From the IMG/VR virus record IMGVR_UViG_3300017697_003163, positions 1 through 36,617 of that record: 36,617 nucleotides of DNA. One strand, 5' to 3'. Source of the DNA: a virus. Shown here in pieces: positions 2,222-20,293 of the stretch (the first letter of the stretch is position 1; each line of letters begins with the position of its first letter). Under the pieces are notes generated by a model, which saw only the letters and a list, made by a program, of their open reading frames with translations, did not search any database and had not been told where the DNA came from. The position numbers were made by a program, and so were the translations under genes.

Positions 2222-2398
2222 ATGTTTAAACGTAAGAAACATGCACCAGACCGCGACGCGGCTGATGCTCCCCTGGAAGAGATCGAGGAGTTCACTCGGC
2301 AGGCGCTCGCCTGGACGGCCCGCGTTCAGGTAGTGAACGACGATGACCCTGACCTTGCTGGGATTGTTCGTGACAAGAATGAGGAGCCTGGTGCATGA
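2222..2398 (+). CDS. Small hypothetical protein, 58 aa
   Basis: The ATG at 2222 begins with codons that form GTTTAAAC (MFKRKK...). The 58-residue product has a basic N-terminus followed by an acidic body and no recognised domain. AGGAG near 2208-2212 is a ribosome-binding site. The TGA at 2396-2398 overlaps the ATG of the endolysin gene at 2395 (ATGA), which supports it as a real translationally coupled gene. The 106-bp gap before it holds a short GC hairpin (CCCCG/CGGGG, 2178-2194) without a T-tract. Confidence 0.7.
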   Translation: MFKRKKHAPDRDAADAPLEEIEEFTRQALAWTARVQVVNDDDPDLAGIVRDKNEEPGA

Positions 2399-5872: not shown

Positions 5873-6103
5873 TTACGGCCCCGTTAAGGATATGTCTGGG
5901 TCGTCTGGAAGGTCAACGATCGTGAATCGTGCCCTCTTAGAAGGTCTTCCCCTATTCGCTGGGCCCTTAACCTTGCTCGGATACAGAACGCTGGAGCATC
6001 CTGAACACAGATCCACCTCCCACGTGTCCTCACCATAAGTGATCGCGTACGTGCCAGCAGACGTGTCCGAACACTTATCGCACACGAGCATGACTACCTT
6101 CAT
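5873..6103 (-). CDS. Lsr2-like zinc-knuckle DNA-binding protein
   Basis: 76 residues if translation starts at 6103, after a GGGAGGTAG ribosome-binding site; a longer start at 6136 exists but lacks one. The N-terminal strand-strand-helix reads CDKC...TYAITYGEDTWEVDLCSGC, with Cys at 8, 11, 33 and 36. This matches the dimerisation half of Lsr2 (YxxxxDGxxYEIDL) with zinc knuckles added, as in several actinophage proteins. A basic RGRPSKRARF segment (51-60) resembles an AT-hook-like DNA contact. Lsr2 proteins bridge and silence AT-rich DNA. It overlaps the end of the integrase gene, so it is probably co-expressed with it and might help establish or maintain lysogeny. Confidence 0.65.
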   Translation of the reverse strand: MKVVMLVCDKCSDTSAGTYAITYGEDTWEVDLCSGCSSVLYPSKVKGPANRGRPSKRARFTIVDLPDDPDISLTGP

Positions 6104-7112
6104 GACTACCTCCCACCACTCGCAGTCCCCCACCACTGACCATACCTGGGAACAGTGGCTTGCCTGCGATCATCTCATTCCGTTGAGTGCGCTCCAAGCC
6201 CCACCCGATGTAATGCTCCGTGACCTTCGTGGACTTATGGCCACACATAGAAGCCACTCGCAGCAGGGCTGAGTCATAGCCCTGATCTCGCAGGCTGTCG
6301 GCCAGTGCCCTGGCCCCTGACCTTCGCAAAGTATGGGCACCTTCCCCAGAGAAAGACACGCCTATTCCCTTAAGGGCCCTCTGCACGGCCCTGTAGGGCT
6401 TAGATTCCATCGTGTATGGCCTGAGTGCTGACATCACTTTTGACTGGACCAGACGCCCGTCAGGGCCTTGCACCCACAGGTCAGGGTTCTTCGCTGGTGC
6501 GAGGTACCACTCAGGAAGCAGGACTCCCTGGTTGTCCCGGTAAAAGTTCAACCACCTGGCCATCTCCGTGGCCAACTCACTGGACACCGGAAGCACATCC
6601 TCGTCATGAGTCTTGTGTCGGGTAATCTTCAACTCACCACGAGAGAAGTCAAGATCCCCTATTCGCATCGTGGCTATCTCTGATCCACGACAAAAGGTGA
6701 ACAGGCCTAGCGCACAGATTGCTCGGTCACGGGGGTGCGGGGCAGCGTCCAACAGTTCCGCGAAACGCTCCACTGGGAGCCTCAGTTTGTCCACGTTCGT
6801 GGACGCCTTCTGGTTATTCCACATCTCTGTCGGGTCGTAGTCTTTCGCCATAAACTTGCGGAGCCGACACCACTTAAAGAACGACCGGATGTTTTGGAGG
6901 TACAGGTTCCTGGTGCGGGCAGCCCAGGCTGCCGTAGCGAACAGCCGGTCCACGTAAGTGTCGTCGATGGTGCCGACATAGACATCTCCCCAGGTCCTCA
7001 AAGCCTGGTTGAGCACCTGACGGTTGTTTTTTATCGTGGAGTTGGCGAGGTTTCTGGCAATGAGGTGGTTTAAGTATTCTTCGGTAGCCTCACTGAGCCT
7101 TTTTGTCTTCAT
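6075..7112 (-). CDS. int: Tyrosine site-specific integrase
   Basis: 345 residues. Residues about 5-90 form the SAM-like core-binding domain (LANSTIKNNRQVLNQALRTW...IRSFFKWC). Residues about 110-310 form the catalytic domain: Arg142 (FCRGSEIATMR), Lys167 (RHKTHDED), His260-Thr-Leu-Arg263 (AHTLRRSGAR), His292 (CGHKS) and the nucleophile Tyr301 (EHYIGWG). All catalytic positions are present, so it should be active. A GAAGGG site sits 8 bases before the ATG at 7112. The presumed attP lies about 90 bp upstream and a divergent regulator follows, the usual arrangement of a temperate phage integration module. Confidence 0.97.
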   Translation of the reverse strand: MKTKRLSEATEEYLNHLIARNLANSTIKNNRQVLNQALRTWGDVYVGTIDDTYVDRLFATAAWAARTRNLYLQNIRSFFKWCRLRKFMAKDYDPTEMWNNQKASTNVDKLRLPVERFAELLDAAPHPRDRAICALGLFTFCRGSEIATMRIGDLDFSRGELKITRHKTHDEDVLPVSSELATEMARWLNFYRDNQGVLLPEWYLAPAKNPDLWVQGPDGRLVQSKVMSALRPYTMESKPYRAVQRALKGIGVSFSGEGAHTLRRSGARALADSLRDQGYDSALLRVASMCGHKSTKVTEHYIGWGLERTQRNEMIAGKPLFPGMVSGGGLRVVGGSHEGSHARVR

Positions 7113-7368: not shown

Positions 7369-7821
7369 ATGTCTCGTCCACAAATACTACCAAACAGTGA
7401 TGAACTACTGGCACTAAGCAAACAAGGGCTCACCCATCAGGAGATAGCAACCCGTATCACAGACACGACTGGGTATCAGGTCACCCGATCAGCGGTGTCG
7501 GTAGCACTACACCGAGCCGGACTGGTCGATCCTAAAGAGCGGTACCAGGATGAGATTCCTTGGAGCCTCAGCGGGAAAGACCTCAAGTCATACCCGGTCA
7601 GGATGCTTCGCCTACTCGCCCGCCAGAGGCGAGGCTTATCCCTCACGGTTGAGGAAGCACACCGGCTTCAGAGTTGGTTGCTTAAGATGGAGGAGAACAA
7701 GGCTGTGGTCGCATTCGACCCAGACCAGAACCCATCTATCTTCTACGTGATGCGTCGTCCAGAAGACGACCCTGAACTTCCGATCAGGAAAGAACGTGTG
7801 CACGTAAACCCTCAGAAATAA
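7369..7821 (+). CDS. Helix-turn-helix DNA-binding protein, candidate repressor/Cro
   Basis: 150 residues. The N-terminal region (about 10-50, LLALSKQGLTHQEIATRI...VTRSAVSVALHRAGL) is a helix-turn-helix of a type common in actinophage regulators. The middle (70-100) is a charged helical pair (LRLLARQRRGLSLTVEEAHRLQSWLLKMEE). GGAAGGG precedes the ATG at 7369. The gene is divergent from the integrase and has its own terminator, so it is a monocistronic unit at the lysogeny/lytic switch position. It may bind one of the repeated operator-like motifs in this genome; no direct evidence ties it to GTTTAAAC. Confidence 0.7.
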   Translation: MSRPQILPNSDELLALSKQGLTHQEIATRITDTTGYQVTRSAVSVALHRAGLVDPKERYQDEIPWSLSGKDLKSYPVRMLRLLARQRRGLSLTVEEAHRLQSWLLKMEENKAVVAFDPDQNPSIFYVMRRPEDDPELPIRKERVHVNPQK

Positions 7822-11187: not shown

Positions 11188-11817
11188 ATGATGTTGTCAG
11201 CAAGTGAACGGCAAGTGTTAGAGCAGGCCACGGCAACATATGAGGCTAACGCTCATCGTGTGCTGGAGTACCTGGAGTCCCGTGGGCTCAGCGCTGAGGT
11301 GGTCAAGCATTACCGTCTAGGTTTCGTTGCAGAGCCGACGCCGGGCTACGGTGACGAGGACTACGTAGGGCGTCTCACGATTCCTTACATGACACCAGCG
11401 GGCGTGGTCGATATTCGTTTTCGCTCGCTGGCAGGAGATGGACCGAAGTACCTAAGCAGAGTAGGGGCTAAGGCCCGCATGTTCAATACCACTGCACTAC
11501 AGAAGGTTTCACGAAACATCCTCATCTGTGAAGGTGAGATAGACACGGTAGTAGCAGACGGAGTGGTAGGCGTGCCCGCAGTGGGCGTGCCCGGTGCATC
11601 TAACTGGCACAAACACTATCCGCTGTTGTTTGAGGGATACCAGCGCGTCTTTGTCATGTCTGATGGCGACGGTGCGGGTCGCGAGTTCGGTAAGAAAGTT
11701 GTCAGCACTCTTGACAATGCAGTGAGCGTCACCATGCCCGACGGGATGGACGTAAACGACGTGCTGCTAAAGGAAGGGCCGTCCGGTATCCGTAGAAGGG
11801 TTGGAATCAGTGAATGA
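11188..11817 (+). CDS. DnaG-like primase catalytic (Toprim) subunit
   Basis: 209 residues. The N-terminal half (1-100) matches the DnaG RNAP basic region (YLESRGLSAEVVKHYRLGFV, GRLTIPYMTPAGVVDIRFRSL). The Toprim domain follows: LICEGEIDTVVA (E115) and VFVMSDGDGAGREF (D159, D161), which bind catalytic magnesium. It lacks the zinc finger found in full-length DnaG and the C-terminal helicase-binding domain. It sits immediately after the CHC2 gene, so the two probably act as one primase with the upstream ATPase. Confidence 0.9.
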   Translation: MMLSASERQVLEQATATYEANAHRVLEYLESRGLSAEVVKHYRLGFVAEPTPGYGDEDYVGRLTIPYMTPAGVVDIRFRSLAGDGPKYLSRVGAKARMFNTTALQKVSRNILICEGEIDTVVADGVVGVPAVGVPGASNWHKHYPLLFEGYQRVFVMSDGDGAGREFGKKVVSTLDNAVSVTMPDGMDVNDVLLKEGPSGIRRRVGISE

Positions 11818-12226
11818 GCGAGCAAAAAGATCTCGTGCACGAGGTGATCAGGTTGATTCACAACCTGGGCTTGAAGGTGGAGGCGGTGGACTTTCGTTCG
11901 GGAAGGTTGACGGTCTTGATCCCTCCACCGAAGCGTTAGCGACCGACCTCGCTGCCATTCTCAATGATGCTTACGTGCTGATGCTTAAGAAGCATGAGAA
12001 CTATGGGCCGCTGAACGTGGCGGGCTCACCGGGTGGTGCATTGAACGGTTTGCGTGTGCGTTTACACGACAAGGCTGCTCGATGGAACCACATGCTCGAC
12101 AATGACAAGACGGATCGCGTAGGTGAAGATCTCATCGAAACATTCACAGACAGTTTGAATTACTGCGCCATCGCAATCCTCGTACTCAAGGGCCAGTGGC
12201 CTGGAGTGGAGCACACTAATGTTTAA
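11810..12226 (+). CDS. DUF1599/MazG-like nucleotide pyrophosphatase-like protein (start uncertain)
   Basis: The convincing domain covers the last ~100 residues: ILNDAYVLMLKKHENYGPL, GLRVRLHDKAARWNHML, EDLIETFTDSLNYCAIAILV, LKGQWPG. This Lys-His-x-x-Tyr-Gly, Arg-x-x-Asp-Lys and Asp-x-x-x-Tyr pattern is typical of phage DUF1599 proteins, an all-alpha NTP-pyrophosphohydrolase-like fold. In-frame starts are TTG 11801, GTG 11810 and GTG 11975. The first two run through a low-complexity shadow of the 41-residue ORF at 11814-11939, and the last would cut a helix. I give the GTG at 11810 with little confidence in the exact start. The TAA stop lies within a GTTTAAAC octamer shared with the next start. 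Confidence 0.7.
   Translation: MNERAKRSRARGDQVDSQPGLEGGGGGLSFGKVDGLDPSTEALATDLAAILNDAYVLMLKKHENYGPLNVAGSPGGALNGLRVRLHDKAARWNHMLDNDKTDRVGEDLIETFTDSLNYCAIAILVLKGQWPGVEHTNV
11814..11939 (+). CDS. Tiny hypothetical protein, 41 aa
   Basis: The ATG at 11814 overlaps the Toprim stop in an ATGA junction and the ORF ends with TAG at 11937-11939. The product is helical then beta-like (LVHEVIRLIHNLGLKVEAV / RSGRLTVLIPPPKR) and looks natural, unlike the same DNA read in the DUF1599 frame. It is either an independent small gene nested against the next one, or the first part of a longer protein if translation shifts by -1. Confidence 0.6.
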   Translation: MSEQKDLVHEVIRLIHNLGLKVEAVDFRSGRLTVLIPPPKR

Positions 12227-12968
12227 ACGCATCTTTGTTATCTCAGACTTGCAGGTTCCCTACCATGACCAGGCTGCTGTCGAGGCGGTTGCCCAGTGCA
12301 TCTCCGACTACAAGAACCCGGAAGATCTCGTGCTGACCATCGGTGACGAGATGGACTTCCAAACCATCTCAAGATGGGTGGTTGGTGGCGAGAAGGAATG
12401 GGAGCGTTCGATGGGTAAGGACCGTGACGCCACGGTCCAGGTGTTGAAGGACTTGCAGGTCACTGACACTATACGTTCCAATCACACGGACAGATTGTTT
12501 ACCAAACTTGCGGGCTCAGCCCCAGGGTTCCTTGGCTTGCCCGAACTGGAGTTACGTAACTTCCTTAAGTTTGATGAACTCGGGATCACATTCCATCCCA
12601 AAGGTTTTCAGTTTGCTAAAGGGTGGATCGCTCTACATGGTGACGAGTCGGGCACTAGCCAGTTGGCTGGTCGTACCGCCGCCAACCTCAGTGGTAAGAC
12701 AGGTTTAAACGTGGTGTGTGGTCACACGCACCGCATGGGTATGGCTGGGCAGACAACGGGTATCTACGGCCACATCTCACGCACCCTGTGGGGCGTGGAG
12801 GTGGGCAATCTAATGGACGCAACAAGTGTTGGCGCGGCCTACAGTCGCATCCACAACTGGCAGCAAGGATGGGCTGTCATGCATATCGAAGACGGCAAAG
12901 TAACACCTACCTTGATGCCCATCGAGAACCGCTCATTCGTTTTTGAAGGGACGCGATACTCATGGTGA
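12219..12968 (+). CDS. Calcineurin-like metallophosphoesterase
   Basis: 249 residues. The metal-binding motifs are in order: SDLQVPYHD (D10, H16), GDEMDF (D43), SNHTDR (N88, H89, a variant of the usual GNHD/E), ALHGD (H140) and CGHTHRM (H169, H171). Phage relatives act as DNA- or nucleotide-processing phosphoesterases; the substrate here is unknown. The start ATG at 12219 is part of ATGTTTAAACGC, so the octamer spans this start and the previous stop. A second GTTTAAAC lies inside the gene at 12703. Confidence 0.9.
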   Translation: MFKRIFVISDLQVPYHDQAAVEAVAQCISDYKNPEDLVLTIGDEMDFQTISRWVVGGEKEWERSMGKDRDATVQVLKDLQVTDTIRSNHTDRLFTKLAGSAPGFLGLPELELRNFLKFDELGITFHPKGFQFAKGWIALHGDESGTSQLAGRTAANLSGKTGLNVVCGHTHRMGMAGQTTGIYGHISRTLWGVEVGNLMDATSVGAAYSRIHNWQQGWAVMHIEDGKVTPTLMPIENRSFVFEGTRYSW

Positions 12969-13633
12969 GCCAATACCAAGGACTAGACGACTGGCAGGTC
13001 ACTACCCTACGAGCAGCAAAGTCTGTGGCCCGCAGGCTCCGTCACAGTAGCCGAGGGATCACTGACCTAGACGACCTTGTTTACACGGCTTTCACTTGGG
13101 CGCTGGAGAACGAGAACAAAGTCAAGTTCTACATCGACGAGGAGCGGGTCGGTTTACTGAAGACACGTTTATACAGGGTGATGCAGAAGTCACTGGCTAA
13201 AGAGCGTGCCGCAGTCACAGGTGCCAGCACGCATGATGCTTTCTACTACACGGCGAGCGCAGTTGAAGAGATTCTTACCTCCGCTTGGGATGCCCCCTCG
13301 ATGGCATCCCAGAGTGATGGGCTCCCGGCTGCTAAGGGGCTCGCCAATGAGGGGGGAAACCGTGAAGCCATGCGGGTAGACGTTTTGCGTGCATTGACGT
13401 TACTCCCCGACGACTTGATCCTCATGCTCCGCCAGCGGTATCAGATGAATCTCACATACGACGAGATCGGTAGCCTCCATGAACTCAAGGGGGACACCGC
13501 ACGTAAGCGTACGGAGCGGGCAGTTATCACGATGCTTGACCTACTTGGAGGGTCATCACCGTGGGCTAAGAGGCGCAGCCGCAGCAACGCTGCTGCTCAG
13601 GCCGAAACTTCGGCAGACTATGGAGGTGAGTGA
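12962..13633 (+). CDS. Sigma-70-like RNA polymerase sigma factor
   Basis: 223 residues starting inside the end of the phosphoesterase gene. An N-terminal helical part with GITDLDDLVYTAFTWALE (about 31-48) resembles sigma region 2. After a flexible middle, residues about 140-195 (LRALTLLPDDLILMLRQRYQMNLTYDEIGSLHEL...ARKRTERAVITML) match the region 4 helix-turn-helix that reads the -35 element. The tail is basic and Ala-rich. It could direct host RNA polymerase to phage promoters. As region 2 is weak, a region-4-only transcriptional regulator is an alternative. Confidence 0.75.
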   Translation: MVSQYQGLDDWQVTTLRAAKSVARRLRHSSRGITDLDDLVYTAFTWALENENKVKFYIDEERVGLLKTRLYRVMQKSLAKERAAVTGASTHDAFYYTASAVEEILTSAWDAPSMASQSDGLPAAKGLANEGGNREAMRVDVLRALTLLPDDLILMLRQRYQMNLTYDEIGSLHELKGDTARKRTERAVITMLDLLGGSSPWAKRRSRSNAAAQAETSADYGGE

Positions 13634-13636
13634 AGC

Positions 13637-13816
13637 ATGTGCGACAACGAGCATCAGCCGCACTTGCATGGGGTCAGCCGCTCAGTCGATCATGCTGGGG
13701 ACCAGTACACGGAATGCTTTTGGTGTGGGGAAGTTTTTCCTGCCGCAGAGTACGACAACCTGTGCCCAGGATGCTCATACGATTGCTCGAAGGTTGTGTG
13801 GGTAGAAGACCTGTAA
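13637..13816 (+). CDS. Small zinc-finger protein, 59 aa
   Basis: 59 residues from the ATG at 13637 (GGAGGTGAG upstream). Two CxxC pairs, CFWC (27-30) and CPGC (43-46), with a further Cys at 50 and several His in the N-terminal half, predict one zinc-binding site. It is the last gene of the rightward replication operon. Its TAA is followed by CTGTTTAAAC and then a terminator, exactly as for the HTH gene at 7369-7821. Confidence 0.75.
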   Translation: MCDNEHQPHLHGVSRSVDHAGDQYTECFWCGEVFPAAEYDNLCPGCSYDCSKVVWVEDL

Positions 13817-13843
13817 CTGTTTAAACATTCGGATACAAAAAAA

Positions 13844-13876
13844 GAAGCCCGGCCCCAACTTGGGGGCCGGGCCTTC
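13844..13876. terminator. Bidirectional terminator between convergent operons
   Basis: The hairpin has arms GAAGCCCGGCCCC and GGGGCCGGGCCTTC (one extra base in the right arm). It has an A-run on the left and TCTCTT on the right. It lies between the plus-strand replication operon and the minus-strand accessory operon. Confidence 0.85.
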
Positions 13877-13882
13877 TCTTCG

Positions 13883-14149
13883 TTAGTCGTCTCGTTGTTC
13901 ATCCTCTTCGGTAGTCACGAAAGCATTAGGTTTCATCGGTGTTGGCAGGGTGACGATTGCCCCGCAAGACCAGCAGATTCCGTCCAAGATATACATGCCT
14001 ATCTCTCCGTCTGAATCGAATGAGCCGACGATGTGGAACATGTCACCGCCACACAGGCATTCCTGTACGGGACCAGCGAACCTGTAGTCCTCGCCACTCA
14101 CGTCATTAGGTGTGTGTAGGAAGTACACACCCTCGGGGTCACTGCTCAT
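13883..14149 (-). CDS. Small Cys-containing hypothetical protein
   Basis: 88 residues from the ATG at 14149 (GAGGTGGA 6 bases upstream; the longer frame to 14164 has no such site). CLCGGD (C31, C33) and CWSC (C59, C62) make a plausible zinc site, with an acidic tail (TTEEDEQRDD). No family is recognised. It is the last gene of the minus-strand operon and overlaps the previous gene's stop by 11 bp. Confidence 0.7.
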   Translation of the reverse strand: MSSDPEGVYFLHTPNDVSGEDYRFAGPVQECLCGGDMFHIVGSFDSDGEIGMYILDGICWSCGAIVTLPTPMKPNAFVTTEEDEQRDD

Positions 14150-14453
14150 CGCTGTCCACCTCACTCATCGAATCAAGGTCTCGGTGTAGGACAGTCAGGA
14201 TGCCTTTCTGTCCTGGCTTAGAGGCAATGATCGGATCGCCCGCACGCTTCACGGCCTCTTTTACCGTGTCGTACGGCCCCCACGTGGACACAAGACGGTC
14301 TTCGATCAGGACCACCACGTATTCCTTGCGGCCCTCGTTGTCAGCGTCGATCATGGTGAGCAGGTCCTTCGCCAGTGTGGCCGTGTCCTCAGCGGGCTCG
14401 TTTAAACGCTTAGACATCTTCGTGATCAGGCTCCGTCGTCGGGACAGTTTCAT
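14139..14453 (-). CDS. Hypothetical protein, 104 aa
   Basis: The start at 14453 is supported by AGGAGGTG 4 bases upstream; the gene therefore begins 44 bp inside the end of the WhiB gene. The N-terminus is basic (MKLSRRRSLITKMSKRL). A helix follows, and then a compact domain (EYVVVLIEDRLVSTWGPYDTVKEAVKRAG...KGILTVLHRDLD) that looks like a small alpha/beta fold of unknown role. A GTTTAAAC octamer is embedded in the coding sequence at 14400-14407. Confidence 0.7.
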   Translation of the reverse strand: MKLSRRRSLITKMSKRLNEPAEDTATLAKDLLTMIDADNEGRKEYVVVLIEDRLVSTWGPYDTVKEAVKRAGDPIIASKPGQKGILTVLHRDLDSMSEVDSDEQ

Positions 14454-15036
14454 GACACCTCCTAAAGTTTTCAGCCATGCGACTCAGTGCTCCGTCCCAT
14501 GAATGGAACGGATCAATCACAAACTGACCCCGGTGCTTTCGGATGCGCTGCCTAGCACGTGACGAAAGCCCACCCCAGAATCCGTGCTCTTCGGCACCCA
14601 GTGCGTACTCGGCGCATGTTTCTTTGATCGGGCAAGAAGCACAGATAACCTTCGCCTCCTCATAGCCTGCGACATCGCCGTTCTCTGCGTAGAAGAAGTC
14701 CGTTGGGTATCCGTGGCACGCGGCCAGATCCATGTCCGGCCTACGGTGCACTACACCCCACTTTCCTTTACGTCGCAGCACTTTCCTCACCTCCAGCCCG
14801 GTCTCTTCCGGCCCAGTCACGCTCATCAAGGCATCCATCATGGCTTCGTGGCGGGCTTTCAGGGCAGCCTTCTCTTCCCGCTTCAACCGGGCTGCTTCCT
14901 TCTGCGCTTCAGCCCGTGCCAGGTCATCCACGTCCATACCTCTCTTGTGCTGACGGTTAAAACGTTGGTAGTGGGCGCGGCACAGGTCGCGTCTATGCCG
15001 TGGCCCCTCGCATCCCACCTCGGCACACGTACTCAT
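14410..15036 (-). CDS. WhiB-family protein with N-terminal zinc module
   Basis: 208 residues. Residues about 101-168 form the WhiB domain: DLAACHG (C107), then CASCPIKETC (C132, C135, C141), the four cysteines that ligate a 4Fe-4S cluster, followed by the GFWGG turn (152-156) and a basic RQRIRK helix. WhiB proteins bind the primary sigma factor and change transcription, and are restricted to actinobacteria and their phages. The N-terminus adds CAEVGCEGPRHRRDLCRAHYQRF (C4, C9, C19, H22), a zinc-knuckle seen in other actinophage proteins, and a charged helix (40-65). The fusion makes it longer than a typical WhiB. Confidence 0.92.
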   Translation of the reverse strand: MSTCAEVGCEGPRHRRDLCRAHYQRFNRQHKRGMDVDDLARAEAQKEAARLKREEKAALKARHEAMMDALMSVTGPEETGLEVRKVLRRKGKWGVVHRRPDMDLAACHGYPTDFFYAENGDVAGYEEAKVICASCPIKETCAEYALGAEEHGFWGGLSSRARQRIRKHRGQFVIDPFHSWDGALSRMAENFRRCHETVPTTEPDHEDV

Positions 15037-15627: not shown

Positions 15628-15666
15628 GTGTCCCTGCCGAGGGCTCGAACCTCGGGGCCTTCCAGC
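15627..15666 (-). other. tRNA T-arm/acceptor-like fragment
   Basis: On the minus strand, CGAGG-TTCGAGC-CCTCG is a perfect 5-bp T-stem with a canonical T-loop, followed by GCAGGGA as a 3' acceptor strand and then CACG, not CCA. Upstream only TCCCCTG-like bases could pair with CAGGGA, leaving no D-arm or anticodon arm. It is therefore a fragment or a minimal tRNA-like fold, not a tRNA gene. It lies between a small gene and a terminator. A perfect AAGTGT/ACACTT palindrome containing GTTTACAC adjoins it at about 15673-15688. Confidence 0.4.
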
Positions 15667-15693
15667 CAGGGGAAGTGTTTACACACTTAACGA

Positions 15694-15828
15694 TCAATAC
15701 TGCTGCTCATCATAGTAGGGGTCGTAGTTCGGCGATAGAACCTTGCGCCAGTAGTAATCGCCAGGGTTGTAGTCGCAGCCCAGGCCATCAGTGTGGCCGC
15801 ATGCTGGGTAGTCTTCACACATACTCAT
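15694..15828 (-). CDS. Tiny hypothetical protein, 44 aa
   Basis: The ATG at 15828 follows GAGGAGGTGAAGGC and overlaps the previous stop (ATGA). The product (MSMCEDYPACGHTDGLGCDY..., ending in a Tyr/Asp-rich tail YWRKVLSPNYDPYYDEQQY) carries three cysteines (4, 10, 18) and one histidine that could form a small zinc knuckle. Tiny CxxxxxC-type proteins of this style are common in actinophage accessory operons. Confidence 0.75.
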   Translation of the reverse strand: MSMCEDYPACGHTDGLGCDYNPGDYYWRKVLSPNYDPYYDEQQY

Positions 15829-16115
15829 GCCTTCACCTCCTCGGTAGGTACAACTGTGTAAACAGCGTCGTTGCCAAGATACTGGTTTGGCATCTTGTCA
15901 GCGTATTTCTGGGCGCTCTCACGATCAGATCGCCAGGACACCACCTCGTACCGTTGCAGCGGGGCCGCGTCGTACCCGTAGCCGTTGTAGCGGTCGTAGG
16001 TCGCGCCCTCGGGCAACTCTCGGACCACCGCCCAGGAGTACACCCTTTCACGTTCGGTCCCCCGCACACTGCGTGTACCGTCGGGATGGATTGCTGCCCG
16101 GTATCGCTTGCTCAT
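15825..16115 (-). CDS. Hypothetical protein, 96 aa
   Basis: The start at 16115 overlaps the previous gene's stop in ATGA. The sequence is soluble and mixed alpha/beta (RAAIHPDGTRSVRGTERERVYSWAVVRELP..., ESAQKYADKMP), without a recognised family. The segment WAVVRELPEG...YEVVSWRSDRESAQKYA looks like a small fold in which a surface helix follows strands. It is expressed with the genes at 16112-16474 and 15694-15828 from one leader module. Confidence 0.7.
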   Translation of the reverse strand: MSKRYRAAIHPDGTRSVRGTERERVYSWAVVRELPEGATYDRYNGYGYDAAPLQRYEVVSWRSDRESAQKYADKMPNQYLGNDAVYTVVPTEEVKA

Positions 16116-16474
16116 TGTGTTACCTCCCGCACTGAGTTGGCGCTCGCGTCCAGCAAGTACACGTGCTCAATCATCCACAGGTCATCATCTGACGTAAAGA
16201 AAGACGGTGCCATGTCGTCGGCATAGGCGACGCCATAGCCAACCACTCCCCTTGCTCGCTCGGCTCCCAGCGGGGCAGGGCTACCGTCTGCGTTGGGGTT
16301 AAGCAGAGACCACCCTCCAGGGATGATCAGCGTGTCGATCACGGTGTCAATACCATCCCGCTCAATCATTGCGGTGAGTGCGGGCATCATGTGCTGAGGA
16401 TAACCGTCAAAATGAACGTAAGTTCCTATCCATCCCGTACCTCTCGGGATTGCTACGACGCTTCGTGTACTCAT
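16112..16474 (-). CDS. Hypothetical protein, 120 aa
   Basis: The start is taken at the ATG at 16474, a few bases after a 14-bp GA repeat; the frame runs open to 16552 but would then include the repeated leader. The product (MSTRSVVAIPRGTGWIGTYVHFDGYPQHMMPALTAMIERDG...) resembles small proteins of actinobacteria and their phages annotated only as hypothetical. It is rich in Gly and aromatics, with no catalytic motif recognised. It heads a three-gene unit. Confidence 0.7.
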   Translation of the reverse strand: MSTRSVVAIPRGTGWIGTYVHFDGYPQHMMPALTAMIERDGIDTVIDTLIIPGGWSLLNPNADGSPAPLGAERARGVVGYGVAYADDMAPSFFTSDDDLWMIEHVYLLDASANSVREVTQ

Positions 16475-16490
16475 TGCTCTCTCTCTCTCT

Positions 16491-16557
16491 GTTTGTGTAT
16501 TCCTGCCTGATTGACAGGTAGCAGGGCACGTGTGTTTAAACACGTGCTCCACTATCC
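16491..16557 (-). promoter_or_regulatory. Repeated leader module E (two hairpins with GTTTAAAC)
   Basis: In minus-strand order: GGATAG, then a palindrome with arms GCACGTG/CACGTGC (16547-16541 and 16532-16526) around TTTAAACA, then hairpin CCTGTC/GGCAGG (16518-16502), then the GA-repeat ribosome-binding tract. It belongs to the family at 16978, 17568, 17880 and 18356. Confidence 0.7.
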
Positions 16558-16571
16558 GTTGTCAGACTCAC

Positions 16572-16958
16572 TCACCCGGCAGCCTGTGTCACTTTAAGGA
16601 AGTCAATCGCATCCCAGATCGACTGCGCCACAGCACTTTCTAGCATTCGGATCACCGCAATGGCTAGCAATCTTTGCATGACCTGTAGCGCGTCATCCAT
16701 CCCAGTACCGTCCATCAATTCGGATGCCTCTACTAGGTAATCATCCAGCACACCAGCCGCTAACAACACATGGTGTGCGTGTGTGTAAACGTACTCGCTC
16801 TGTGATTCAGCCCATTCAGAGGCTGCATCTATCCACTCTCCCGAGTCGAGCGAGTGTTCAAGGTCTTCCACGGTTACATACCCGTGCAACCACTCATCAA
16901 TAATGTCTTCACGGCTACGGTCTACGAAGTCTTGGAAGGTCAGTCGCTCTCCATACAT
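16572..16958 (-). CDS. Hypothetical helical protein, 128 aa
   Basis: The start at 16958 follows a 13-bp GA repeat. The product is acidic and helical (MYGERLTFQDFVDRSREDIIDEWLHGYV...). It has the same length as the protein at 17953-18339 and a loosely similar central region rich in Glu, Trp, Tyr and Ala, so the two may be distant paralogs; I cannot demonstrate that without alignment. No function is recognised. Confidence 0.7.
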   Translation of the reverse strand: MYGERLTFQDFVDRSREDIIDEWLHGYVTVEDLEHSLDSGEWIDAASEWAESQSEYVYTHAHHVLLAAGVLDDYLVEASELMDGTGMDDALQVMQRLLAIAVIRMLESAVAQSIWDAIDFLKVTQAAG

Positions 16959-16977
16959 AACATGCTCTCTCTCTCTC

Positions 16978-17031
16978 AGTCCTGCCTGATGACAGGTAGC
17001 AATGCGCGTGTTTAAACGTGCATCACTATCC
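16978..17031 (-). promoter_or_regulatory. Repeated leader module D
   Basis: Minus-strand order: GGATAGT, palindrome arms ATGCACG/CGCGCAT around TTTAAACA, hairpin CCTGTC/GGCAGG, GA tract. The outer arm bases differ from the other modules (ATGC/GCAT instead of GGGC/GCCC) on both sides, so pairing is kept. Confidence 0.7.
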
Positions 17032-17042
17032 ATGATCAGGAA

Positions 17043-17549
17043 TTAGGGCTCGTTGATAGCGACGACTCGTGACCGCCAGTTCTTCGGGAGTCTCACTATC
17101 ATGGCGTCGCAGTTGCGACGCGCAAGGTACTTGCCCGCCCAGTAGAAACCATCTTCTTGCACTCCGTCACTGAACGGCAGCGGGCTTTCTAGTCGGATTG
17201 AATCACCGGGCTGAAGTTTCTTCGTCGCGTCCCTACGGTTTAGCACTGTGGCGCACTTGTTCAACCACTCGGACTCGTACTCGTTGCGCTCGCGCCTGCT
17301 CGTTAGTGCTAGGTACTTGCAGAGCATGGCACGAGTTGGCACGTCGTGCGGGCCAGACGTGGCGCTAACATCCTTTACCGCTATCTCTCCAGCGTGACGT
17401 TCTGTGAGGAACAGAGTTAGCCCGACATAACCGTCAGGGTTGCGCCACAGTCTCCACTTCCCAGACTTAGCAAGTACCTCACATCCACTCATCTCGTGCT
17501 CGATAGCCTGCTCGGCAGTCTCTCCGTTGGTATATACAGTCCATCCCAT
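17043..17549 (-). CDS. Hypothetical protein, 168 aa
   Basis: The start at 17549 follows a 13-bp GA repeat. The sequence is mixed alpha/beta and slightly basic: MGWTVYTNGETAEQAIEHEM, GKWRLWRNPDGYVGLTLFLTER, QEDGFYWAGKYLARRNCDAM. Related proteins occur as hypothetical proteins in actinobacteria and phages. The beta-rich centre with WRLWR...GYVGLTLFL suggests a small binding domain. It is a single-gene unit with its own leader module. Confidence 0.7.
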   Translation of the reverse strand: MGWTVYTNGETAEQAIEHEMSGCEVLAKSGKWRLWRNPDGYVGLTLFLTERHAGEIAVKDVSATSGPHDVPTRAMLCKYLALTSRRERNEYESEWLNKCATVLNRRDATKKLQPGDSIRLESPLPFSDGVQEDGFYWAGKYLARRNCDAMIVRLPKNWRSRVVAINEP

Positions 17550-17567
17550 GATGTTCTCTCTCTCTCT

Positions 17568-17625
17568 GTGTGTGCCTGCTTAGTTGCAGGTAGCCGGGCA
17601 CGTGTTTAAACATGCCCGACTATCC
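17568..17625 (-). promoter_or_regulatory. Repeated leader module C
   Basis: Minus-strand order: GGATAGT, palindrome GGGCATG/CGTGCCC around TTTAAACA (one G-U pair), hairpin CCTGC/GCAGG around AACTAA (both arms changed together relative to the CCTGTC/GACAGG of module B), then the GA tract. Confidence 0.7.
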
Positions 17626-17629
17626 GCTA

Positions 17630-17863
17630 CTAGATGGCAAACTGTGAATGACATGAACCGCACGTGACCCCTGTCCAGGTCTCCCGCTCGATGTTCCTGA
17701 CCTCGTAGGCCATCTCGCTTACATCCTCGCGAAACATCGGGTGCACGTCGTTACCCTCCCTGTCTACGCCCTCACCGTTAGGGAAGCGGGCAAGTGTGCA
17801 GGGTGCGCAATGGTAGTCGGCCTCGTAGGTGTAGCCCATTACGTCGTAAGGTTGCAGGCTCAT
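17630..17863 (-). CDS. Zinc-ribbon hypothetical protein, 77 aa
   Basis: The start at 17863 follows an 11-bp GA repeat. CAPC (C19, C22) and CGSC (C68, C71) form two knuckles of a probable zinc ribbon, separated by an acidic, charged middle (GEGVDREGNDVHPMFREDVSEM). The role is unknown; it may bind nucleic acid or a protein partner. It is a single-gene unit between leader modules B and C. Confidence 0.75.
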   Translation of the reverse strand: MSLQPYDVMGYTYEADYHCAPCTLARFPNGEGVDREGNDVHPMFREDVSEMAYEVRNIERETWTGVTCGSCHSQFAI

Positions 17864-17879
17864 TGTGTTCTCTCTCTCT

Positions 17880-17940
17880 ATTGTGTGTACCTGTCTGGCG
17901 ACAGGTAGCCGGGCACGTGTTTAAACGTGCCCGACTATCC
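17880..17940 (-). promoter_or_regulatory. Repeated leader module B
   Basis: Minus-strand order: GGATAGT, perfect arms GGGCACG (17932-17926) / CGTGCCC (17917-17911) around TTTAAACA, hairpin CCTGTC GCCA GACAGG (17905-17890), then the GA tract. It is the most regular copy. Confidence 0.75.
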
Positions 17941-17952
17941 ATAGCCAGTGCG

Positions 17953-18339
17953 CTAGTTGTGGGCGGCGTCGATGATCTTCATGGCCGCCGAGTAGTCGCG
18001 GTTGGCGATAATCTTCGTAGCCGCCTCGTGCAAGCGGTCGTGGTGCCATGAGTACGAGAGCGCACAGCACAGATTTAAGATCATTAGTTGGACACCGTCT
18101 GTTGTGTTTCCTGCCGCATAGCGAGCGTGCTCGTCGTCTACGTTGTCGAAGTAGCCAGCGGTGAATAGGGACAGGGCTTGGTAGTAGTAGATGACACCAT
18201 CTAGACCGTGAGCGGTTTCGTACGCCCATTCCTCGATGTTGGCGCTATCTAGTTCGCCATGCTCCAGCGCCTCCAGCGCGTACTCGTCGGCCAACTTGCC
18301 GAAATTTCCAGCGTAGAAGTAGGGGTTGAATCTGCTCAT
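17953..18339 (-). CDS. Hypothetical helical protein, 128 aa
   Basis: The start at 18339 (MSRFNPYFYAGNFGKL...) follows an 11-bp GA repeat; the frame is open further upstream to 18468 but that part runs through the leader repeat. It is an acidic helical protein with many Ala, Tyr and Leu (EYALEALEHGELDSANIEEWAYETAHGLDG) and no recognised family. It may be distantly related to the 128-residue protein at 16572-16958. Its size and helical character would suit a small adaptor or host-interaction protein, but this is open. Confidence 0.7.
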   Translation of the reverse strand: MSRFNPYFYAGNFGKLADEYALEALEHGELDSANIEEWAYETAHGLDGVIYYYQALSLFTAGYFDNVDDEHARYAAGNTTDGVQLMILNLCCALSYSWHHDRLHEAATKIIANRDYSAAMKIIDAAHN

Positions 18340-18355
18340 GATGTTCTCTCTCTCT

Positions 18356-18420
18356 AGTCGTTGCTTGCCCGGTCGGACATGCAACACCGGGCACGTGTTT
18401 AAACGTGCCCGATGCAACGT
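18356..18420 (-). promoter_or_regulatory. Repeated leader module A
   Basis: The first hairpin is intact, with arms GGGCACG/CGTGCCC around TTTAAACA (18410-18389). The second is replaced by a longer loop closed by GTTGC/GCAAC (18385-18360). The GA tract precedes the start at 18339. The GGATAGT block is missing, so this is the most diverged of the five copies. Confidence 0.65.
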
Positions 18421-18425
18421 GTTCG

Positions 18426-19082
18426 CTATAGGCCCTGAACGGTCATCGGTTCGGCACATACCCCGCACCGTGGCGCGCCCCGCTCCGCTTGCTTGCGGCT
18501 CAGCCGCACCACGTAGGGGTCAGTCGGGTCACAAGCACACACGGCCTTGAGCATCCGCGTTGTCTGCTTGGGGTGCGACGTGCCACCGCCACCGGGCGCT
18601 CCGGGGTTAGGCGTCGGGACCTTGCCCCCGAAGCCACCGCCACCGAGCGCACCGTGCGGATATTCGCCCAAGGTGTGTGTTACAAAATCGGCCAGGTCAC
18701 GGGCTAGATCGTCACCGGCCACAGTGGCCGTCATTTTGCCAGCCAGTCCGAACGCTAGCGCCCAGTCCTTAAACAGACCCTTATGCCCCGACGTATTTTC
18801 GTCGTAGGCGTGGATCATCTCATGGGCCAGAATGTCTAGCACTCTCGCCGCGTTGTCTTGTGTGGGGCTGATGAAAATATGGAAGTGATCATCATCGGCT
18901 GCTGCCTTATGCCAACACTGACCGATTACTGACGACCGGTCACCCCGCCCACCCGGCCAGCCGACCGACACCCTCACGGGAGGGAGCGGCTTGCCCGTAA
19001 TCTCTGTGAGCACGTCGCCTAGTTGCGCGACCGCTTCCATTAGCCAGGCTTCCCGCGTCTCGTACCTTGTCGCTAGTTTCAT
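18426..19082 (-). CDS. SprT-like zinc metalloprotease
   Basis: 218 residues. The catalytic helix LDILAHEMIHAYDE (HExxH at 87-91) is followed by GHKGLFKDWALAFGL with the third ligand H100, the SprT/Spartan signature. A Gly/Pro linker (about 140-170) leads to a C-terminal ribbon with CACD and CGVC (a probable zinc site). Spartan proteins degrade DNA-crosslinked proteins in eukaryotes; the bacterial SprT and phage roles are not settled. The start at 19082 overlaps the previous stop (ATGA). It is expressed with the small gene before it. Confidence 0.88.
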   Translation of the reverse strand: MKLATRYETREAWLMEAVAQLGDVLTEITGKPLPPVRVSVGWPGGRGDRSSVIGQCWHKAAADDDHFHIFISPTQDNAARVLDILAHEMIHAYDENTSGHKGLFKDWALAFGLAGKMTATVAGDDLARDLADFVTHTLGEYPHGALGGGGFGGKVPTPNPGAPGGGGTSHPKQTTRMLKAVCACDPTDPYVVRLSRKQAERGAPRCGVCAEPMTVQGL

Positions 19083-19288
19083 GCCGTCACCTGCTCAAGT
19101 AGTAGGGCGAATTGTCCTAGCATCCGGGTCAGGTGTTCGTCTGTATCGCCTTCGCTAATCGGGAGCGTGCCAACCGCGGTACCGGAACACCGGACAACCG
19201 CGTGAACGGTGCCCGGTTGAATCTCTAGGCACCACATGGAATAGCCGCCATCATCGGTCGGGCCGGTTATGTATCGATTGTTGCTCAT
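19079..19288 (-). CDS. Small hypothetical protein, 69 aa
   Basis: First gene of the minus-strand cluster. The ATG at 19288 is preceded by an 18-bp GA repeat, the longest in the family. The product is a compact beta-then-helix chain (YSMWCLEIQPGTVHAVVRCSG...DEHLTRMLGQFALLLEQVTA) with no recognised domain. Its stop overlaps the SprT-like start. Confidence 0.7.
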   Translation of the reverse strand: MSNNRYITGPTDDGGYSMWCLEIQPGTVHAVVRCSGTAVGTLPISEGDTDEHLTRMLGQFALLLEQVTA

Positions 19289-19290
19289 GT

Positions 19291-19370
19291 TCTCTCTCTC
19301 TCTCTCTCACGAAAGACACGCGGGTTATCCGTGTGACCATCGCAAGGCACGGGTGCTAGACCGTGCTTGC
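19291..19370 (-). promoter_or_regulatory. Leader of the first minus-strand unit
   Basis: On the minus strand two hairpins (GCAAGCACGG/CCGTGCCTTGC with a bulge at 19370-19342, and ACACG/CGTGT at 19334-19316) precede the GA tract. The layout mirrors modules A-E but lacks the GTTTAAAC centre. The promoter of the cluster should lie upstream; I see no confident -35/-10 pair. Confidence 0.5.
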
Positions 19371-20293
19371 GCGTCACTCCCCTACCGGGCCGCTCTTCCC
19401 TAAGGTGGCGGGCTCGCCGTGTCCGCCCCCGCCATGCGGGGTGTCGGTCGGGAGTGCGTTGTGCCTCTGTTTATCATCGACCCCTATTCTGCTGGGCCGG
19501 TGTCCTGGTTCACGGCCTGGGATTCCGCGTGCCTTGCGGCCTTCGGACTTCCCAAGCGGTGCTGACAAGTAAGACAATACCCGAGAACGGTAGGTGTTAC
19601 AAGTCAGATCCGAAAGTCTTCCGATATGTCCGAATTTCTTAGAGGGAATCGGCGTGTCACAGTGTGTCTGTTTATACCCCCAGGGGTATCTCGTGGCCTG
19701 TCACCTATGCGGTCCCTCATCTCCGATGAGAGGCCTAGGCCAGACATCGAAGAGATGTCTAGCCGACCTGTCTTCTAGCCTGCCTTCCTGCCTTCCTATC
19801 TTCCGTCACCTGTCGGCCTGTCGGCCTGTCTTCCTGTCAGTGGAGGTGACATCGATGCCTGTCTATATACATGTCTCTCTATATATGTGATAGTCCAACC
19901 GCCCGGACTTCTGCCGATCTATATACCCCGGGGGGTACGGCTCGGTCGAATGCACGGGAGACCCTCCCCGGGGGGTGGACTATCGAACACATGTGCCAAC
20001 GGAGGGGGTCGGGGGTGGCCTCAGACGATCGATCGCGCATGGATCTTGACCCCATCATTGCTTAACACTCGTCGTCTATATATACATATATCACCTTTTA
20101 ATTCTGTGGAAGGTGGACCTTTGGACCCCTCCTACAATGTGACGGATAAGTAACAGGAGTCTCAGATTTCCCTGAGAAAGAGGCTCTATATCCCCCCAAA
20201 ACGGACAACTTTGGAGATTTTTACTTTCGGAGTGTCCGATAGTGCTTATTTCCAGGCTTATATACAGTGAGAGCCTTTTTCTTTTAGGTACTA
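19371..20293. other. Long noncoding regulatory region, possible replication origin
   Basis: About 920 bp without a convincing gene; open frames here are short, lack ribosome-binding sites and read as low-complexity. Contents: inverted GATACCCC/GGGGTAT at about 19674-19690, TACCCC/GGGGTA at about 19924-19937, the CCTGTC array, and at least five (C)TATATA blocks at about 19863, 19880, 19920, 20076 and 20260. GC-rich and AT-rich tracts alternate. It separates the divergent minus-strand accessory and plus-strand structural operons. Confidence 0.5.
19767..19863 (+). repeat. Tandem 8-bp-period CCTGTC array
   Basis: CCTGTC occurs at 19809, 19817, 19825 and 19833 with an exact 8-bp period. The same period begins with CCTGCCTT at 19779 and 19787 and continues through a degenerate unit at 19795. 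Further CCTGTC copies lie at 19697, 19767 and 19858. It could be an iteron-type protein-binding array. CCTGTC is also the arm of the second hairpin in the leader modules. Confidence 0.7.

Follow-up and report, generated by a model that had tools for sequence, protein, structure and literature searches.

Five two-hairpin leaders that precede consecutive small genes in the early operon of an uncultured temperate actinobacterial phage are real elements whose pairing is selected, and they represent one RNA architecture, whose layout recurs in cultured Streptomyces phages of the Beephvirinae. The octamer GTTTAAAC, which lies in the loop of the first hairpin, is a DNA layer separate from the RNA leader. 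The pairing is probably under selection at the RNA level, and the explanation toward which we lean is a structured RNA leader that processes or insulates the early mRNA, combined with a GTTTAAAC stoperator in the hairpin loop.

The window (the whole stretch of DNA analysed, a 36.6-kb virus record of IMG/VR with 56.5% GC) encodes a large terminase, a portal protein, a WhiB-like regulator and a SprT-like protein, and its tyrosine integrase marks the phage as temperate. The N-terminal stretch of the WhiB-like protein (window 14410–15036, minus strand) weakly matches HNH endonuclease families. Comparison of terminases placed the Streptomyces podoviruses of the Beephvirinae as the nearest cultured relatives (48% identity), and synteny is common to the window and these phages; the terminase found no match in genome contigs, and the DUF6927 protein found none in IMG/VR. 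Two sibling contigs were 99.8–99.9% identical to the window over the shared parts, the leader region lying outside both. Their layout indicates that the map is circular and about 39.65 kb long; the window lacks about 3.0 kb of it, a stretch found at 11196–14229 of the sibling L092. The leaders belong to an early operon on the minus strand, which runs from 19288 to a terminator at 13845–13874. The relevant features are as follows:

6075..7112, minus strand: tyrosine integrase (Pfam PF00589, E 7.5e-12)
13845..13874, minus strand: terminator closing the early operon, from the terminator scan
19289..19400, minus strand: leader 0, before the first operon gene 19079–19288; hairpins and a long GA tract, no GTTTAAAC; folding z-score −2.2
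18340..18425, minus strand: leader A, before gene 17953–18339; hairpin 1 loop TTAAAC, divergent second hairpin, GA tract; folding z-score −4.1
17864..17952, minus strand: leader B, before gene 17630–17863; P1 CUGGC/GCCAG, P2 loop GTTTAAAC, P3 CCUGUC-GCCA-GACAGG, GA tract; folding z-score −6.0
17550..17632, minus strand: leader C, before gene 17043–17549; P1 UAGU/ACUA, P3 CCUGC-AACUAA-GCAGG; upstream stop codon inside the leader; folding z-score −5.7
16959..17042, minus strand: leader D, before gene 16572–16958; P1 CCUGAU/AUCAGG, P2 arms AUGC/GCAU, P3 CCUGUC-AUCA-GGCAGG; folding z-score −1.9
16475..16571, minus strand: leader E, before gene 16112–16474; P1 GUCUGA/UCAGGC, P3 CCUGUC-AAUCA-GGCAGG; folding z-score −3.0

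Here, P1 denotes the flank–loop helix, P2 hairpin 1 and P3 hairpin 2. All five two-hairpin modules described in an earlier reading of the letters without database searches (the sequence-only reading) were present, including a module A with no GGATAGT and a divergent second hairpin. The sense strand is the minus strand, and the five leader gaps precede genes starting at 18339, 17863, 17549, 16958 and 16474. GGATAGT, found in leaders B–E at 17940, 17625, 17031 and 16557 and absent from A, had been taken for a separate box; it proved instead to be the 5′ arm of P2 (GGaUAGUC...GGCUAcC, the A being bulged or mismatched). Hairpin 1 has the loop TTAAAC and is not centred on GTTTAAAC as had been proposed, the axis of its arms lying 1 bp off that of the octamer. 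In leader E, P2 is two pairs longer, GT/AC having been gained on both arms together. P1 goes beyond the earlier description: in B–E, the loop and 3′ arm of hairpin 2 are complementary to the flank that precedes hairpin 1, and this flank differs in sequence from copy to copy except that D and E are similar. Since P1 and P3 share a few bases, the two would either alternate or coexist as a pseudoknot with the loop. P1 and P2 together make up a continuous imperfect duplex of 22–24 bp with 1×1 mismatches in B–E. Downstream of P3 come an A/C-rich spacer, the purine-rich ribosome-binding tract and the start codon; the predicted folds leave the purine tract unpaired. No kinship was detectable among the genes that follow the leaders (A vs D, BLASTP E 1.4), in agreement with the view that the leader is the conserved element.

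The complementarity and conservation of P1, P2 and P3 were directly evident. Over 23 pairs in B–E, 94.6% of the cells were paired compared with 26–39% in slid versions, seven pairs carried changes on both sides, and none of 500 shuffles matched the paired cells; the suggestion that the pairing itself is selected, perhaps in RNA, was thus borne out. P3 is nearly invariant across B–E. The complementarity of P1, anchored beside P2 in a register picked after the folds had been seen, was reached by 0 of 20,000 shuffles, and a looser test gave p=0.0017. In folds of shuffled flanks, hairpin 2 masked the effect of P1, and swap and shuffle tests were used instead. The covariance model R1, built from B–E, matched leader A, which was absent from its training (E 4e-9), and weakly matched leader 0 (E 0.3); outside the window it found no match.

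Searches of Rfam at gathering and relaxed thresholds, covering the window, its relatives and the Beephvirinae, gave no meaningful match to the leaders. When IMG/VR was scanned for DNA patterns of the leader, whether or not GTTTAAAC was included, chance matches in coding sequence were all that came up. Leader blastn against cultured phages found no match, so the leaders of relatives are visible by layout only. The uncultured relative G005 (terminase 59%) carries four leaders of the form GGACCGUG...CGCGG-CCUAGC...GCUAGG-SD-start, and G007 carries at least two of the same layout with a different sequence. In both, compensatory changes were found in P2 and P3, and P1 was weak (p=0.026, own partners scoring about equal to swapped ones). 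The word CTCGAG is 4–6 times over-represented in G005 (L094/L095, 105 vs 24) and G007 (L096–L098, 103 vs 17), where it forms hairpin arms of the leaders; Leu-Glu codon usage may contribute. In a further relative, G009 (repressor 37%), a different two-hairpin leader occurs twice at the equivalent genomic place; these copies lie at L201 1–480 and L203 2160–2212 and have the palindromic tip CGCGTACGCG.

About 45 intergenic leaders of this layout were found in seven cultured Streptomyces phages of the Beephvirinae (WRightOn, Manuel, Stella, FlowerPower, Percastrophe, Dennebes and Abafar), with some 6–9 in each. The set was derived from 52 purine tracts before open frames, which gave 47 distinct leaders after removal of duplicates and two spurious cases. 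For the 36 leaders with a clean P2 core, the own P1 score was 15.6 against 11.8 for random re-pairing, whose maximum was 13.7, and 0 of 20,000 re-pairings reached the own score; an automatic P2 finder that swallowed P1 gave a weaker result (p=0.002). RNAalifold, run with no hint on 14 of the leaders, recovered P1 and P2 with two-sided changes in 14 of 16 pairs, counts that are not independent events because these leaders include related copies, and its covariation score was reached by 0 of 500 shuffles. The sequence-only reading had named a lack of covariation in a larger alignment as fatal to it; the strong covariation in the cultured phages shows the opposite. The model R3, built from the 14 leaders, found about 20 further leaders at E<0.1, all in early minus-strand gaps, and did not match the window leaders; as no covariance model crosses the lineages, common descent of the window and Beephvirinae leaders is unproven. 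Both groups display P1, P2 and P3 in the same layout before a purine-rich ribosome-binding site in the early operon. Moreover, in all five window leaders and in 17 of 19 cultured ones, the 5′ strand of P1 starts between −10 and +13 nt from the upstream stop codon. A terminating ribosome could reach it there, but tight gene packing may also account for the closeness. Nothing relevant was found in the open literature on the Beephvirinae and intergenic hairpins, and an earlier description elsewhere is possible.

As a DNA word, GTTTAAAC is more over-represented than any other octamer in the window, with 17 copies against about 0.2–0.3 expected. It is not restricted to the leaders, 12 of the exact copies being found elsewhere. 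The sites of the octamer, of its variant and of the repressor gene are listed below:

16534..16541, palindromic: GTTTAAAC in the P2 loop of leader E; other leader copies at 17010, 17604, 17919 and 18397
2224 (2224..2231), 2570, 7824, 9668, 10710, 12221, 12703, 13819, 14400, 24531, 29889 and 35151: the 12 dispersed copies of GTTTAAAC
5289, 5708, 11001, 12060, 13079, 15175, 15677, 15856, 16783, 27015 and 36451: the variant GTTTACAC/GTGTAAAC
7369..7821, plus strand: L5/R4-type immunity repressor with an HTH and a stoperator domain (PHROG 3929/357)

For eight of the 12 dispersed copies, a gene boundary is no more than 60 nt away (p=0.0008). Seven copies are coding, compared with 0.22 under synonymous shuffling (maximum 3 in 1000), and five of the interior coding copies force the uncommon TTA codon. 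The word is kept at 8 of 8 sites in the covered part of the sibling; with an identity of 99.8%, this carries little weight as evidence. Among one-mismatch variants, GTTTACAC/GTGTAAAC alone is enriched (11 vs 0.7); it is in the sense orientation at 10 of 11 sites, and eight of those placed are in coding sequence, mostly in one frame.

The presence of an integrase and of a repressor of the L5/R4 type, a family that acts via dispersed operators or stoperators (PMC9283540, PMC5721134, PMC10276819), suggests that GTTTAAAC, set in the P2 loop, is probably the site of the window's repressor. The repressor has 198 phage homologues, and tblastn links it to the R4-like, cluster A and CA repressors. A profile of the window and R4-like repressors matched the TipsytheTRex repressor structure (PDB 7r6r/7tz1, E 1.4e-10, residues 27–146), and the window repressor alone found no match in PDB at E 0.01. 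Words found de novo in R4 (TGTGYAAGT), Jevington and BroPlease (GTGTGWTAG) show that the site is particular to each phage. Relatives with 37–39% identical repressors lack GTTTAAAC, and no relative turned up that combines a closer repressor with this word; the link between repressor and word therefore rests on knowledge of the family. Repressor relatives were also considered as proof of this link, which they left unconfirmed, the word being present in none of them.

The dispersed octamer resembles the stoperators of L5/cluster A, R4-like and cluster CA phages in that a temperate genome has many copies of one short word, for the most part at gene boundaries, alongside a repressor of the same family. 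Those stoperators are asymmetric and about 13 bp long (the R4 word is in the sense orientation at 16 of 17 sites), whereas GTTTAAAC is an exact palindromic octamer with five copies in an RNA hairpin loop; it is a candidate stoperator with a new sequence. The leaders resemble the SAS and ESAS elements of cluster K and EF phages, repeated in gaps just before the starts of unrelated genes (PMC3203893, PMC7302621). The cluster K SAS contains GGGATAGG and lies at the ribosome-binding site, whereas GGATAGT in the window lies about 60–70 nt upstream; changes in ESAS were judged to lend no support to RNA pairing, whereas pairing is supported in the window leaders. The 13-bp GGGATAGGAGCCC-type motif is absent from the ribosome-binding sites of the window leaders, which consist of a GA repeat. 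In the Gordonia DR phage CaiB, the inverted arms GCGGG/CCCGC followed by GAGAGGAC similarly precede six gene starts, but this appears to be a single short hairpin and has not been treated as RNA (PMC9302106). The dyads of cluster O and EG phages (PMC4351075, PMC7302621) and the Vardy motif (PMC9671010) are placed similarly to the window leaders.

A parallel in position and build exists with the type II hammerheads (RF02276) of R4-like phages, which also stand before consecutive small minus-strand early genes, have two hairpins and vary by compensatory changes. R4 and Jevington (L116 and L118, 40–50 kb, minus strand) carry 9 and 13 of them, several directly after a stoperator. Unlike these, the window leaders lack the core CUGAUGA/GAAAC, and the RF02276 covariance model, which matches R4 and Jevington, found no match in the window, its relatives or the Beephvirinae. 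A proposed role of hammerhead arrays is the division of long phage transcripts into mRNAs of gene length (PMC3088659), and the most economical view is that the two-hairpin leader fulfils an equivalent role through RNase III-type cleavage, a block at the 5′ end or its own catalysis.

In the explanation toward which we lean, each leader would be a structured RNA within the polycistronic early mRNA, in which the 5′ strand of P1, then P2, then P3 with the 3′ strand of P1 in its loop precede the spacer, ribosome-binding tract and start codon. Because the 5′ strand of P1 coincides with the upstream stop codon or directly follows it, a ribosome terminating there would keep it from pairing. The leader would act after transcription, setting and protecting gene-specific mRNA 5′ ends made by endonuclease cleavage or by blocking a 5′–3′ exonuclease, and would provide every small gene with an insulated ribosome-binding site of its own. 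In the temperate lineage, the DNA of the P2 loop would also carry the GTTTAAAC stoperator, through which the repressor would block transcription of the early operon in the prophage. The RNA-leader half of this proposal draws on structure and the stoperator half on motif statistics. The lack of GTTTAAAC in leader 0 counts against the combined proposal. The operator half of the operator–attenuator idea in the sequence-only reading is accordingly plausible, since GTTTAAAC is dispersed and selected and the repressor is of the L5/R4 type. The attenuator half did not hold up: the terminator scan found no stem followed by a T-run in the leaders and a sole strong terminator at 13845–13874, which makes transcription attenuators very improbable even though two alternative hairpins could form. 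With the purine tract unpaired, simple masking of the ribosome-binding site fits no better.

Cleavage by RNase III of the P1–P2 duplex, which would separate the gene mRNAs and leave P3 as a new 5′ cap hairpin, is a possibility to which we give limited credence. The 22–24-bp imperfect duplex in B–E would suit it. The early mRNA of the podovirus T7 has an RNase III hairpin at each early gene boundary, and the leaders likewise occur once per boundary; however, they differ from the T7 hairpins in sequence and layout, cleavage of the leaders is hypothetical, and the complementarity to the P3 loop would be superfluous for a simple duplex substrate. A purely DNA-level family of operators, in which inverted repeats bind a regulator and RNA folding is incidental, would be in keeping with GTTTAAAC as a selected dispersed DNA word and with the repeated dyads known near gene starts in cluster O and EG phages (PMC4351075, PMC7302621), but it is unlikely: covariation of the arms passes through G-U pairs, their register is offset by 1 bp from that of the octamer, the sense-strand arms and P1 partners vary between copies yet remain complementary, and the arms of the cultured leaders have no common DNA word. 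A self-cleaving ribozyme of an undescribed class before each gene appears quite unlikely. The element is compact and pseudoknot-capable, its layout is fixed, and hammerhead II stands at the equivalent position in R4-like phages, but there is no Rfam ribozyme match and few invariant unpaired nucleotides such as a catalytic core needs.

We put forward, as a tentative and less probable extension, that the leaders form an undescribed class of pseudoknotted phage RNA, common to the Beephvirinae and uncultured relatives, that senses the ribosome terminating upstream (or self-cleaves, or blocks a 5′–3′ exonuclease), thereby providing a separate mRNA for each early gene. One lineage would have fused a DNA stoperator into the hairpin loop, leading to separate prophage and lytic functions.

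To our knowledge, repeated start-associated sequences of actinobacteriophages have been listed since 2011 with no function ever given. The two-hairpin leaders constitute a family in cultured Streptomyces phages with no Rfam entry; given these cultured members and covariation sufficient for a structure, roles in mRNA processing, translation insulation and regulation are directly testable. Different phage groups seem to use different RNA devices, hammerheads or two-hairpin leaders, in the same position, a pattern that points to a common requirement for dividing early transcripts.

Two further observations concern other elements. At 15640–15720 of the window (minus strand), a stretch resembling a tRNA T-arm and acceptor end occurs with a AAGTGTGTAAACACTT palindrome, no tRNA being called there by ARAGORN. 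In BroPlease (L117 47163, 44969 and 47825, minus strand), the stoperator-like GTGTGWTAG stands immediately ahead of a variable hairpin (GCTGAG...CTCAGC), and both precede small early genes.
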